Shown here piece by piece: positions 14,115-19,127 of a stretch of 64,000 bases of DNA. The DNA comes from Candidatus Krumholzibacteriota bacterium. GTDB taxonomy: Bacteria; Krumholzibacteriota; Krumholzibacteriia; JAJRXK01. The notes below the pieces were generated by a model. That model was not told where the DNA came from. It saw only the letters and a program-made list of their open reading frames with translations, and ran no database searches. A program made the position numbers and the translations under genes. The stretch covers positions 1-64,000 of the forward strand of contig JAJRXK010000040.1 of assembly GCA_024276305.1 (NCBI GenBank), read 5' to 3'. How positions within the stretch are numbered: the first letter of the stretch is position 1; each line of letters begins with the position of its first letter.

Positions 14115-14741
14115 TCAAGGTGCCGCCGCGTCGTAGAGGGCCTTCACCGCGGTCCAAGTGGGATTCGCGGTGGAGACCGGTCTGACGACTTCCACTCGAA
14201 TGTTGTCGAAGTAGACATCCCACGCCGGGAGGATGTGGTCCTCCAGCATGATCACGATCCGTCGATCCTCCGGGGTGAAGACGGCGTAGGGATCGAAGGA
14301 GACCGAGTAGGAGTGCCAGGTACCGTCGTCGATCAGAATGGGATCGGCACCGCTGATCGCAGTGGTGGCGACCAGCCACAACCCCTGAGAGGGTAGGTTG
14401 TCATCGGCGTATCCGACGAAGGCGCCGTGAAGGCCGGAAATGGAACCGGGGCGTGGAAAGCCGAGGTAGTCGAAGGTCAGCAGGATCTTCTGACCCGCGG
14501 CCACGGCGAAGTCCTGGCTGCAGATGTCGCCAAAACTGCTCGCCGCAGAGAAGGTCAGGGCGTGATTGGTGATGTCCAGGGGATCGGTCTGAATCTCTCC
14601 GGAATGGGTACCCGAATGTCTCCCCGTCCACGCCGAGAGATCCCCCTCGAAATCCTCCGTGAGGACGGTATTCTGCGGCTCGTCGGCCAGGGCTGGCCCG
14701 ACGACCGAGAGCATGCAGAGCGCTAGAACCTTCCATCTCAT
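14115..14741 (-). CDS. Secreted jelly-roll domain protein with C-terminal TWTAVK tag
   Basis: 208 residues with a clear signal peptide (about 1-19, cleavage at 'ALA-D'). The rest is a beta-rich carbohydrate-binding-module-like jelly roll: 'NTVLTEDFEGDLSAW' at the start, 'ILLTFDYLGFPR' in the middle and 'VYFDNIRVEVV' near the end are typical edges of such domains. The sequence then ends NPTWTAVKALYDAAAP, the fourth copy of the short tag shared with other secreted proteins here. The substrate is unknown; surface binding of glycans or another ligand is inferred only from the fold type. GGAGCAATTC precedes the ATG on the minus strand. Monocistronic, divergent from metK. Confidence 0.72.
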   Translation of the reverse strand: MRWKVLALCMLSVVGPALADEPQNTVLTEDFEGDLSAWTGRHSGTHSGEIQTDPLDITNHALTFSAASSFGDICSQDFAVAAGQKILLTFDYLGFPRPGSISGLHGAFVGYADDNLPSQGLWLVATTAISGADPILIDDGTWHSYSVSFDPYAVFTPEDRRIVIMLEDHILPAWDVYFDNIRVEVVRPVSTANPTWTAVKALYDAAAP

Positions 14742-14931
14742 GAATTGCTCCTTCGAATGAATGAATCGTACCCAACTCTTCGGAGGACCGCCCCGGAATC
14801 CCAGGATCCAGGGGCTCGGCCAGGCGCTGGGATGGGTTCGGATCCCGGGCGACGAGAGGCTGAACGCTCTTTTCCCCGAAAATCGTGGCCAGATGGCTGC
14901 GAAATCTCCGGAAATCGTCTATACTCGGTCC
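14742..14931. other. Intergenic region between the divergent secreted-protein gene and metK leader
   Basis: No gene is supported here. A TATACT box at 14920-14925 fits a -10 element that would start transcription near 14932 towards metK; no convincing -35 element is visible. Both strands have short open frames that look like chance. Confidence 0.4.
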
Positions 14932-15110
14932 GACTGTGGTGATTTGAAGCGACAGCTTGCACGCCACGTAAAAAAAGGTGCTAAAGCGTCTGGGCGAAGG
15001 TTGGTTCCAACTCACCGCGTCCCCCGCTCGCACCGCGTCGGGGGCTTTCTTGTGCCCAATCGGACTTCTTCTGCCGACGCGTGAACTCTGTTAGATATGG
15101 AGGCTCGAGA
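14932..15110 (+). promoter_or_regulatory. Structured metK leader with terminator-like hairpin, candidate riboswitch
   Basis: From the inferred transcript start the leader can fold into several helices. GTGG (14936) pairs with CCAC (14964), enclosing AAGC-GACA-GCTT (14947-14958). An A7 run is followed by GGTG (14977) pairing with CACC (15013), enclosing GTTG-GTTC-CAAC (15000-15011). Then CCCCCG (15021-15026) pairs with CGGGGG (15039-15044), followed by CTTTCTT, which looks like an intrinsic terminator. CACCGCGT occurs twice, at 15013 and 15031, so the 3' side could form alternative pairings. A terminator before a methionine adenosyltransferase gene suggests SAM-responsive attenuation. I do not recognise the consensus of SAM-I, SAM-II, SAM/SAH or SAH classes. 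GGAGG lies before the metK ATG. Confidence 0.5.
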
Positions 15111-16283
15111 ATGAGCGCATCCCACCCTGAATTGCCGGCCGGAGCCCACATCCTCTCTTCGGAGAGTGTCAGCGAGGGACACCCCGACAAGGTCTGTGAT
15201 CGCATCTCCGATGCGGTCCTCGATGCGAACTTGAGGGAAGACAGCGCAGCACGAGTAGCCTGCGAGACTCTGGTGAAGAACAACAAAGTCGTTCTCGCCG
15301 GCGAGATCACCTCTTCGGTGGCTCACGACCTCGACTACGACGCCATCGTTCGCGAGGCCGTGCGTGAGATCGGTTATACCTACGACGACCAGGAATTCGA
15401 GGCCACCAAACTCGAGATCATCAGCTTTCTCAGCCCCCAATCCCCCGAGATCTCGCAGGGAGTGACCGCCGACACTTCTCTGTCCGGAGAACAGGGCGCC
15501 GGCGACCAGGGGCTCATGTTCGGTTATGCCAGCAACGAGACCCCGGAGTTGATGCCTCTGCCCATCGCTCTCTCGCACCGCCTCACCCGAGGATTGGCCG
15601 AGGATCGCAAGGCGGGCAAGCTCGATTGGGTGCGTCCTGACAGCAAGAGCCAAGTCTCGGTGGCCTATGTCGACGGAAAGCCCCAGTTCGTGACCGCGGT
15701 GGTTCTGAGTACCCAGCACACGGCCGAGGTCAGTCGTGAGCAGATCGAAGCCTACGTTCGCGAGGAGCTCTTGCCGCGTTGTCTGGGTGAATGGAACAAC
15801 TCGGAATTCGTGCTCCACGTCAATCCCACCGGCAGCTTCATCCAAGGAGGACCCAGCGCCGACGCCGGCCTGACCGGTCGCAAGATCATCGTCGACACCT
15901 ACGGTGGTCTGGCTCGACACGGTGGAGGAGCCTTCAGTGGAAAGGATCCCAGCAAGGTCGATCGCAGTGCGGCCTATTTCGCGCGCTATGCGGCGCGTGA
16001 CATCGTGATGCAGAACATCGCAGAGCGGTGCGAAATCCAGGTGGCCTATGCGATTGGTCAGGCGGATCCCGTGTCCATCGCCGTCGACACCTTCGGCACC
16101 GGGAGTGCCGCCGAGGCGCGGGCCTATCTGAAGCAGCACTTCGATTTCCGCCCGGCCTCCATCGTCGAGACCCTGAATCTGCGTCGGCCCATCTTCGGCC
16201 AGACCACCAACTATGGCCATTTCGGTCGGGCCGGCCTGCCCTGGGAGGAGTCGCCGGTGCGCGCTTCGGCCCAGGCGAGCTAG
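15111..16283 (+). CDS. metK: S-adenosylmethionine synthetase (methionine adenosyltransferase)
   Basis: 390 residues. Begins with 'SSESVSEGHPDKVCD', the ATP- and methionine-binding signature with the catalytic His in GHPDK; 'GAGDQGLMFGYA' and the P-loop-like 'GGGAFSGKDPSKVDRSAAY' signature follow. It makes S-adenosylmethionine from methionine and ATP. The start is the ATG at 15111 after GGAGG; a longer frame beginning in the leader has no support. A structured, possibly SAM-sensing leader precedes it and a strong hairpin terminator follows. It ends with TAG, one of several TAG-terminated genes here. Confidence 0.97.
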   Translation: MSASHPELPAGAHILSSESVSEGHPDKVCDRISDAVLDANLREDSAARVACETLVKNNKVVLAGEITSSVAHDLDYDAIVREAVREIGYTYDDQEFEATKLEIISFLSPQSPEISQGVTADTSLSGEQGAGDQGLMFGYASNETPELMPLPIALSHRLTRGLAEDRKAGKLDWVRPDSKSQVSVAYVDGKPQFVTAVVLSTQHTAEVSREQIEAYVREELLPRCLGEWNNSEFVLHVNPTGSFIQGGPSADAGLTGRKIIVDTYGGLARHGGGAFSGKDPSKVDRSAAYFARYAARDIVMQNIAERCEIQVAYAIGQADPVSIAVDTFGTGSAAEARAYLKQHFDFRPASIVETLNLRRPIFGQTTNYGHFGRAGLPWEESPVRASAQAS

Positions 16284-16414: not shown

Positions 16415-17530
16415 CTAGTCCCTCTGGCCGTTCAGATAGATCCTGGTCATCCACCCGACGACTCCCAAGGCCACGACGAAGAGTCCCCCGAAGGCCAGGG
16501 CCATGGACCACTGAGGCATCACCTCCAGGTCCTGGAGGCGGAAGTGCGCCGCGAGGGTGTTGCGCCGGACCGCGTCGCGGGTGAGAACCATTCCGACCAG
16601 AGTCAGGCCCAGCAGCCAGGAGGAGAGGTGCACGAGCGGAAAGCTTCGCCGGGCCCGCAGGGCGAAGACCATGGTCACCATCGAGAGCAGGGGCAGAGTC
16701 ATGGCGACCATGAAGACGATGGTGGCCGGACGGTCTCCCCCCAGCAGGGGCATCATGACTTCCCTCGGCAGCGAAATCAGCCACCACAGACCGGTTACGA
16801 TCTGGAAGGCGGTGGGGAGGAGGTACCACAGTGCTCCGAGTTGGAGCCAGCGAGCGCCGTCGGGTTGCTCGCGGTCGAGGCGGCGGGAACCCACCATCGC
16901 GAGGATCATTCCGGTCACCCCCAGTGCTGCCACCATGAAGTGCAGAAGACGAGGCCAGAAGCTGGGGTCGTCCAAGTTGAGGTGAAGGCCGCTGGCGTTC
17001 GCGAAGTACTTGGCTGCCCAGGCCTCGGGCCGCAATCCGACGCCCATGTTGTTGGAGATGACGAATGCGATGAGCAGCAATCCTCCGACGACCTTGACCG
17101 ACTGGATCATCTGCCATCCGCCGAAGTCCTGTCCTTTCCACGAGAGGACGTAGGTGAGGGAATAGGTCACCAGGAGGAGGGGGATGATCCACAGCCAGGG
17201 CCAAGCCATGACCACGCTGCTGCTGTAGAAGAATGGCCCGTAGAGAGTCTGGAGGAAGAGAAGGGGGGCGACTCCGAAGGTCACGGTGAGGGCGAAGGCA
17301 GTGGGGAGTCTCTTCTCGAACCAACGGGCCAGCCGACGCGATTCGGCAGTTTCGGCCTCGTCCCCCGAACGCCAGGCCCGGGCTCTCTCGATCATCGAGA
17401 TCACCGCGCCCCCGACCAGAAAGTTCATGAGTACGAGATGCAAGGAAAAGGTGAGGTGCAGCAGAGACTCGAAGAGCCAGGCAGGGCCGGGAATCCCCAA
17501 GGGATCCGGACCGGGGACCAGACCGTTCAT
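16415..17530 (-). CDS. CydA-like polytopic membrane protein, second subunit of a bd-type-like respiratory complex
   Basis: 371 residues with about eight or nine predicted membrane helices and no cytochrome c motif. The N-terminal helices ('HLTFSLHLVLMNFLVGGAVIS', read in parts) and conserved His and Trp residues resemble the CydA fold of cytochrome bd oxidases, and its length is close to a CydA core lacking the Q-loop. Its start overlaps the stop of the upstream CydA-cytochrome c gene by four bases (ATGA), so they are translationally coupled and probably form one complex. Whether it binds heme itself or acts as a CydB-like partner cannot be read here. No canonical cydB is in the window. Confidence 0.6.
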   Translation of the reverse strand: MNGLVPGPDPLGIPGPAWLFESLLHLTFSLHLVLMNFLVGGAVISMIERARAWRSGDEAETAESRRLARWFEKRLPTAFALTVTFGVAPLLFLQTLYGPFFYSSSVVMAWPWLWIIPLLLVTYSLTYVLSWKGQDFGGWQMIQSVKVVGGLLLIAFVISNNMGVGLRPEAWAAKYFANASGLHLNLDDPSFWPRLLHFMVAALGVTGMILAMVGSRRLDREQPDGARWLQLGALWYLLPTAFQIVTGLWWLISLPREVMMPLLGGDRPATIVFMVAMTLPLLSMVTMVFALRARRSFPLVHLSSWLLGLTLVGMVLTRDAVRRNTLAAHFRLQDLEVMPQWSMALAFGGLFVVALGVVGWMTRIYLNGQRD

Positions 17531-19047
17531 CGTCCCACCTCTTTGGTCCGAGCCACGTTCTGCCCCAACCAGTCGGCGAGGAGCTGGCGTTCCCGGTCGC
17601 TTCCCGTGAAGGGAGGCATGTAGTCCGATTCCATGTACTCCATGAATTCGTAGATCTCCTCGCTTTCCATGCCCTCGATGTACTCACCCAAGTCGCGGAA
17701 TCCACCGAGAGAGTGGCAGGGAGAGCACCGGCGTTCGTAGGCCGCGCGCCCATCGGCGGGCAGGGCCACTTCGGAGGGGACCCCCGGCAGCTGGTGGAGG
17801 TACAAGGCGAGAGCTCGAGCCTCGTCGGCAGTTCCCACCCAGGGCGGCATGGGTCGGCGCAGGTATTCGATCCTCTTGATGAGCGCGGTGGTGTACTGCG
17901 GTTCCCATCCGCTCACGCGGGAGGCGAGCCCGTTGTAACCGCTGCGCGCGTGACAGTTCTGACAGGCCACGCGAAAGAGCTCGCGGCCCAGGGCCAGGGA
18001 ATCCGTGGCGGCGACGGATCGGGTCCATCGGGCGTTGGCCAGGATGCCGCCCTCCCGAAAGCGGTCGATCTCATCGGCCCGCAAGCCATTGACGTAGAGA
18101 TAGTCCTGAACGATCCAGGGCTTTCGCACGCCTTCTCGGACCCATTCGCCCAGCCCGAAACAGAAGAGTCCCAGACCCAGGACGAGGAGGGTCACCGGTC
18201 GGCCGCTGCGTCGAGGAAAGAGGAGGGGACCGAGGATCACGATCACCGCCAGGACGGCGACGGCGATGGGGGTCCATTGGGTGACGACGGTGGCGATGGG
18301 CATGTCTCCCCGAGTCAGTTCTCGAGCCGTCTCGGGGATCTTCCTCCACCACCAGAGGACCGCCAGACTGGCCGCGGCAATTCCCACCAGGGACCACACC
18401 GCGCTGTATCGCTGGAGCCAGATCCGTCGCGAGCCGGCCTCTCGGCCCGTGGCGGTCCAGAGTCCGAAGAGGCCTGCCAGACCGATGGCCCAGAAACTCC
18501 GGATGAACATCGAGGACCAGTAGGTGGGGTTGAAGAAGCCGTCGAAGACATTGCGGGTCGAGAGCCACGGTCCGGGAGTGAGCTGGAAACTGATGATTCC
18601 GTTGATCACCACGAGGGAGAACCAAGCGGCAATGAAATAGATCCAGCCCACGGTCTGGTGCTGACGAGCACTGAGGCGATCCCAGCCGTAGACGTAGACC
18701 AAGGCGGCGACGATCTCCATGAAGAAGAAGCACCACTCGATGGTCCAGGCCCAGACGAAGGTGTGGATGAGAGCACTGGTCCCGGTGGGATTGATCAGAC
18801 CGATGGTGAACCAGATTCCCACTCCGGTCATGGCTCCGAAGACCAGGCTCAGCAGAAGGAAGGCCCGCGAGTGCGACTGCACGATGGCAAGCAGCACCGG
18901 GTCTTGCCGCTGGCGGGCCAGGGTCTCGGTGACGATCAGGTAGAGTCCTCCACCCACGGCAATGTGGGCGATGAAGACGTGGATCACCGCGATGACTGCG
19001 ATGAGCAACCCGTGGGCGAAGGGTAGGTCCCAAACCGGATAGTGCAT
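17527..19047 (-). CDS. CydA-like membrane oxidase subunit fused to a di-heme cytochrome c domain
   Basis: The start at 19047 is preceded by CGGAGGACGTC; the 12 residues upstream in frame are not used. The N-terminal part (about 1-320) has eight or nine membrane helices of CydA type: His residues in the first helix ('IHVFIAHIAVGGG'), 'GAMTGVGIWFTIGLINPTG', and Glu residues in 'TIEWCFFFMEIVAALVY' that match heme-pocket positions. The C-terminal part (about 340-506) is soluble with two c-heme sites, CQNCH (about 357) and CSPCH (about 439). Known relatives are cytochrome bd-family proteins with fused cytochrome c that may take electrons from cytochrome c rather than quinol. 506 residues; coupled to the next gene. 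Oxygen reductase activity is inferred. Confidence 0.68.
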   Translation of the reverse strand: MHYPVWDLPFAHGLLIAVIAVIHVFIAHIAVGGGLYLIVTETLARQRQDPVLLAIVQSHSRAFLLLSLVFGAMTGVGIWFTIGLINPTGTSALIHTFVWAWTIEWCFFFMEIVAALVYVYGWDRLSARQHQTVGWIYFIAAWFSLVVINGIISFQLTPGPWLSTRNVFDGFFNPTYWSSMFIRSFWAIGLAGLFGLWTATGREAGSRRIWLQRYSAVWSLVGIAAASLAVLWWWRKIPETARELTRGDMPIATVVTQWTPIAVAVLAVIVILGPLLFPRRSGRPVTLLVLGLGLFCFGLGEWVREGVRKPWIVQDYLYVNGLRADEIDRFREGGILANARWTRSVAATDSLALGRELFRVACQNCHARSGYNGLASRVSGWEPQYTTALIKRIEYLRRPMPPWVGTADEARALALYLHQLPGVPSEVALPADGRAAYERRCSPCHSLGGFRDLGEYIEGMESEEIYEFMEYMESDYMPPFTGSDRERQLLADWLGQNVARTKEVGR

Positions 19048-19127
19048 GACGTCCTCCGTCGGTGCATCTCGACTCCGAGGCACACCGCCAGTCTAGTTTC
19101 GATGGGGGGGACTCACAACCACAGAGG

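Follow-up and report, generated by a model that had tools for sequence, protein, structure and literature searches.

The window, that is, the whole stretch of 64,000 nt analysed here, from a Candidatus Krumholzibacteriota bacterium, contains a metK gene whose identity is established by NCBIfam model TIGR01034 (482.9 bits, cut-off 309.4), in agreement with Pfam. Its ATG, at 15111, lies 105 bases past the match to a SAM-II aptamer, and a hairpin with a U-rich tail is found between the two. Past metK, on the opposite strand (16415-19083, -), a 518-aa frame with cytochrome bd subunit I-like and cytochrome c domains (PF01654, PF13442) adjoins a 371-aa frame without a Pfam match. The features of the leader and the gene are the following:

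14920..14925 (+), -10-like TATACT, with a putative transcription start near 14932; from the sequence, no -35 match
14926..15005 (+), SAM-II aptamer (RF00521, SAM_alpha); full-length covariance-model match
14935..14940 (+), 5' strand of P1, UGUGGU; covariance model, predicted fold and covariation in relatives
14941..14945 (+), segment GAUUU of the loop, conserved; identical in all 13 copies of alignment A1
14951..14953 (+), 5' strand of the P2 pseudoknot, GAC; covariance model, helix test and covariation
14963..14968 (+), 3' strand of P1, GCCACG; covariance model, predicted fold and covariation
14970..14976 (+), A7 run, A-rich segment joining P1 to the core; from the sequence
14977..14988 (+), aptamer core GGUGCUAAAGCG, including GCUAAA (14980-14985), with predicted alternative pairing to the terminator arm (putative antiterminator)
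14988..14990 (+), 3' strand of the P2 pseudoknot, GUC; covariance model, helix test and covariation
14992..14996 (+), GGGCG, partner of 15018-15022 in the two predicted folds
15013..15020 (+), CACCGCGT, first copy of a repeat; from the sequence, not above chance
15021..15044 (+), hairpin CCCCCG...CGGGGG of -14.5 kcal/mol, putative intrinsic terminator
15031..15038 (+), CACCGCGT, second copy of the repeat, in the terminator loop; its CACC is within the GCACC that pairs with GGUGC
15045..15053 (+), U-rich tail CUUUCUUGU
15099..15103 (+), GGAGG, Shine-Dalgarno-like, ca. 95 bases after the aptamer; from the sequence
15111..16283 (+), metK, methionine adenosyltransferase; Pfam and NCBIfam TIGR01034

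A SAM-II aptamer ahead of metK

A comparison of both strands of the 64 kb with Rfam 15 revealed that RF00521 (SAM_alpha), which is the SAM-II riboswitch according to PMC2258182, matches positions 14926-15005 (+) with 45.4 bits (gathering score 36; E 5.3e-7, far beyond chance), and over the full length of the model (positions 1-79 of 79). Only four matches in the whole window exceeded the gathering score, the other three being tRNAs. In a permissive scan of 14700-15300 no further Rfam family reached its cut-off around the leader, and the SAM-I, SAM-IV, SAM-V, SAM-VI, SAM/SAH and SAH families gave no match at E up to 1; RF01726 (SAM-II long loops), which belongs to the same fold family, scored 24.9 bits, below its gathering score of 44. 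Matches to CRISPR-DR20 and ZNFX1-AS1_2 in this interval, as well as one to Bp2_287, were below their cut-offs and were ignored. The original prediction had presented the leader as a candidate new class of SAM-responsive RNA; with RF00521 as the only SAM or SAH family to reach its cut-off, it belongs instead to a known class. Recognition of a known class by a covariance model was the outcome that the prediction itself had said would refute its novelty.

The metK leader is therefore a new example of the SAM-II class, in a lineage outside the one best known for it. SAM-II (SAM_alpha) was first described as the metA element. Besides the full-length match, the window element shares with RF00521 the helix P1 and, less clearly, the P2 pseudoknot, the GAUUU and GCUAAA segments, a terminator-type expression platform and a gene of SAM/methionine metabolism, whereas it differs in that its lineage is not Pseudomonadota, in that the gene is metK, and in its short P2, of three pairs only (P1 has six, 14935-14940/14963-14968). 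The SAM/SAH riboswitch of the Rhodobacterales (RF01727) also occurs before metK (PMC2864571); the location is thus alike, but RF01727 gave no match to the window at E up to 1. In the excerpts considered here of a Proteobacteria survey (PMC4239095), the SAM_alpha targets are metY, metA, metX, hom, metC and metW, without metK among them. Likewise, a non-exhaustive search of the SAM-II literature, covering parts of the sources, found no SAM-II element before metK, and a search for literature on Krumholzibacteriota and riboswitches found none.

Covariation in relatives and the expression platform

RF00521 matched 11 of 80 genomes of the phylum, all of one class and including the window's own genome, at E <= 0.001, and eight of the 80 (own genome included) over the cut-off; there was a single match in the own genome and none in 14 control genomes. 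A model built from 11 aptamers of the phylum (R1) matched 14 of the 80 genomes at E <= 0.01, again with the own genome included, and the three genomes that it added (G007, G011 and G034) each carry two copies in a row, of 39.2 to 45.2 bits. An RF00521 match in G007 (L009, 27.2 bits), without most of the loop and not refound in the phylum scan, was dropped.

The GAUUU and GCUAAA segments are invariant in all 13 copies of alignment A1, window included. Covariation, which the original prediction had named as a check, was evaluated in alignment A2, of 11 rows with the window included, from which L006 and the second element of L113 (L113b) were dropped for aligning poorly or being variants; L009 and L010, the latter with an aptamer identical to that of L008, were never in A1 or A2. 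The rows of A2 were trimmed by hand, and the P2 columns were assigned by hand from the alignment. P1 and P2 covary in these 11 copies from the phylum: together they have 92.4% of their cells paired and 19 cells changed on both sides, values that none of 500 shuffles reached, and slid partners paired in 32-50%. For P1 alone, 98.4% of the cells are paired, with changes on both sides at four of its six pairs. P2 is paired in 85.5% of the cells in relatives, although the window itself has only three pairs, which 10 of 12 swapped tails equalled or surpassed; a cruder helix test of P2 with 13 copies, in which 342 of 5000 permutations reached the summed score, was much weaker than the count in A2.

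Among the individual elements of the original prediction, the A7 run and the GC hairpin with its tail, which is interrupted, are present as described. Helix 14935-14940/14963-14968 is also there, but the leader as a whole (14926-15110) folds no better than shuffled sequences (z -1.00; 34 of 200 shuffles equally stable), and we discarded folding stability as evidence for the leader. The direct repeat of CACCGCGT does occur, at 15013 and 15031; nevertheless, an 8-base repeat arises in 301 of 2000 shuffles, and it was rejected as a designed switch, while its second copy, which lies in the pairing partner of the aptamer core, may take part. As to the promoter, TATACT resembles a -10 box, but a simple scan of the leader called neither a sigma-70 promoter nor a terminator. 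The apical region of the hairpin, of 12 nt, is larger than the loop limit of the scanner, which is 8.

In the unconstrained predicted fold of 14932-15056, GGUGC (14977-14981) pairs with GCACC (15030-15034) and AGCG (14985-14988) with CGCU (15025-15028), and these pairs, along with those of GGGCG (14992-14996) with 15018-15022, occupy the 5' arm of the terminator. When P1 was forced and the pseudoknot strands were blocked, most of the terminator stem formed (15023-15026 with 15039-15042). Since in the unbound fold the 3' part of the aptamer pairs with the 5' arm and the loop of the hairpin, the aptamer plus the terminator excludes the antiterminator, and both structures are mutually exclusive in the predicted folds. 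Only three of 100 shuffled arms reached the core-to-arm pairing of the window; this pairing was also above that of shuffled arms in L004 (7/100), L008 (6/100) and L113 (2/100), the last two being near-identical and so not independent, less so in L003 (11/100), and it was unremarkable in L005 (26/100), L011 (37/100) and L112 (79/100). A strong hairpin followed by a U-rich tail was found after eight of the 12 SAM-II copies examined (L001, which is the copy of the window, L004, L003, L112, L005, L008, L113 and L011); L007 has a terminator candidate of only -2.4 kcal/mol, and no terminator hairpin was found in L111, L002 and L006. The leader of congener G001 (L004) has the same layout as in the window, with GGUGC/GCACC and AGCG/CGCU recurring.

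Proposed control of metK

According to Corbino et al. (PMC1273637), SAM-II RNAs comprise P1 and P2, with a promoter lying a few bases upstream of P1 and, in many representatives, intrinsic terminators, and terminated leader RNAs were described in S. meliloti by Scheuer et al. (PMC9373788). The features found here make it highly probable that the SAM-II leader turns metK off by transcription termination when SAM is plentiful. For the window RNA we infer a transcription start a few bases before P1. With SAM scarce, the core GGUGCUAAAGCG would pair with CGCU and GCACC of the downstream hairpin, as in the predicted fold, and the resulting antiterminator would allow RNA polymerase to read into metK. 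Conversely, binding of SAM would let P1 and the P2 pseudoknot hold the core strand, so that the C5/G5 hairpin at 15021-15044 could form ahead of the U-rich tail and transcription would stop ca. 60 bases before the start codon of metK. From the mutual exclusion of the aptamer plus terminator and the antiterminator, high SAM is therefore predicted to stop transcription before metK, and the outcome would be product feedback on the SAM synthetase. The core of the original prediction, a SAM-responsive leader with two competing folds and a terminator before metK, is well supported.

It is unlikely that the riboswitch acts mainly on translation, like the compact SAM-II RNAs that cover the Shine-Dalgarno sequence with their pseudoknot: such translational RNAs are known (PMC9373788), and the three of 12 copies in the phylum without a terminator hairpin, plus the fourth with a very weak one, would fit them, but GGAGG in the window starts some 95 bases after the aptamer, with the -14.5 kcal/mol hairpin and the U-rich tail in between. 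Less probable still is a decayed aptamer that has lost its SAM response and precedes a constitutive terminator. The short P2 of the window, whose three pairs do not exceed those of swapped tails, and the ordinary folding energy of the leader would agree with decay; against it, the match is full length and above the gathering score, all the conserved segments are intact, and the layout is kept in the congener. We give practically no credit to a new SAM riboswitch class, which had nothing in its favour beyond the earlier failure to recognise a known one, against an RF00521 match above gathering, with RF01726, itself below its cut-off, as the sole further SAM or SAH family listed at E up to 1.

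Ancestry of metK and SAM-II elements elsewhere in the phylum

MetK matches were found once in the own genome (G000) and twice in congener G001. In a quick tree of 69 MetK rows (40 of 80 named loci, 28 from the phylum and the window MetK), the window MetK clustered with the SAM-II-linked copy of G001, a long branch (95*), and separately from G001 C142, G002 and G003, the remaining copies of the family of the window; the SAM-II-linked copies of G017, G054 and G079 formed another separate set (100*). Constraining the window MetK with G001 C142, G002 and G003 was rejected (p-AU 0.006), and a constraint that placed it with all 22 copies presumed to be vertical in the phylum was not rejected at 0.05 (p-AU 0.064), both constrained groups having been named after the tree was seen. 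The tree suggests that the window metK is a xenolog that displaced the ancestral copy; it is also possible that a second metK is absent from the assembly, which is 97.87% complete.

The SAM-II leader and metK of the congener are separated by a 445-aa frame (L104, G001:C89, 3193-4530, -), which is rich in cysteine close to its start and matches nothing in Pfam or PADLOC. Model R1 also detected a possible SAM-II element before metK in Proteobacteria bacterium SKS3.bin107 (L033, 1380-1438, +; 27.1 bits, E 1.7e-5), which Rfam did not recover at E up to 0.05; on the other 79 named metK loci, R1 gave nothing below E 0.05.

Three loci, L116 (G079:C59), L110 (G054:C70) and L109 (G017:C157), contain a cluster with a SAM-II element, metK, a SAM-II-like variant, a MoxR-like AAA+ ATPase, a VWA-like protein (DUF2201) and a divergent MetK (MetK2). 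The 3' end of the variant overlaps the Shine-Dalgarno sequence; Rfam listed none of these variants at E up to 0.05, and the one listed with R1 reached only 21.2 bits. MetK2 is ca. 29% identical to the window MetK and scores 135.8 bits with TIGR01034, below the cut-off of 309.4. In G017 there are extra genes between metK and the MoxR gene, and the contig ends within MetK2; each of the three genomes has another metK elsewhere. Additionally, a tandem of SAM-II copies precedes a 149-aa frame and metK in L109 (7158-7335, -), with a terminator hairpin after the first copy and none after the second, like the mixed tandem type of PMC9481103, where 44 tandem SAM-II pairs are on record.

Tandem SAM-II copies with Rfam scores below the cut-off also occur in L136 (G011:C7), L138 (G007:C250) and L137 (G034:C66). 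Those of G011 and G007 are followed by a gene that shares 41-48% identity with the MoxR-like ATPase of G079, and the G011 locus also has a VWA-like match; no match to either protein was found at the G034 locus. In L106 (G046:C98), L107 (G014:C58), L105 (G010:C12), L108 (G018:C38), L115 (G073:C173) and L114 (G075:C63), SAM-II precedes genes without a plain link to SAM: a double-AAA ATPase, with IetA as its best PADLOC match (8e-36), a gene with a weak TPR match, three without a Pfam match, and tilS, 637 bases past its SAM-II copy.

Taken jointly, these observations allow a reading that we offer tentatively and consider rather doubtful: SAM-II would have spread in this phylum beyond methionine genes and on acquired or duplicated metK copies, the window metK would have been acquired horizontally together with its riboswitch and would have displaced the ancestral metK, and in other families there would be a SAM-gated AAA+ operon, in which SAM-II elements, among them tandem and Shine-Dalgarno-overlapping variants, might control a MoxR-type AAA+ ATPase together with an extra metK, a strongly divergent MetK paralog and a VWA-like protein. 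The leader of the window itself adds little, as one more SAM-II element of familiar termination design, located before metK in a lineage other than Pseudomonadota. More useful is the context, with three relatives carrying SAM-II before or inside the cluster of metK, MoxR, VWA and divergent MetK genes, which provides a testable link between the SAM level and an AAA+ system; if true, an AAA+ system would be newly tied to SAM.
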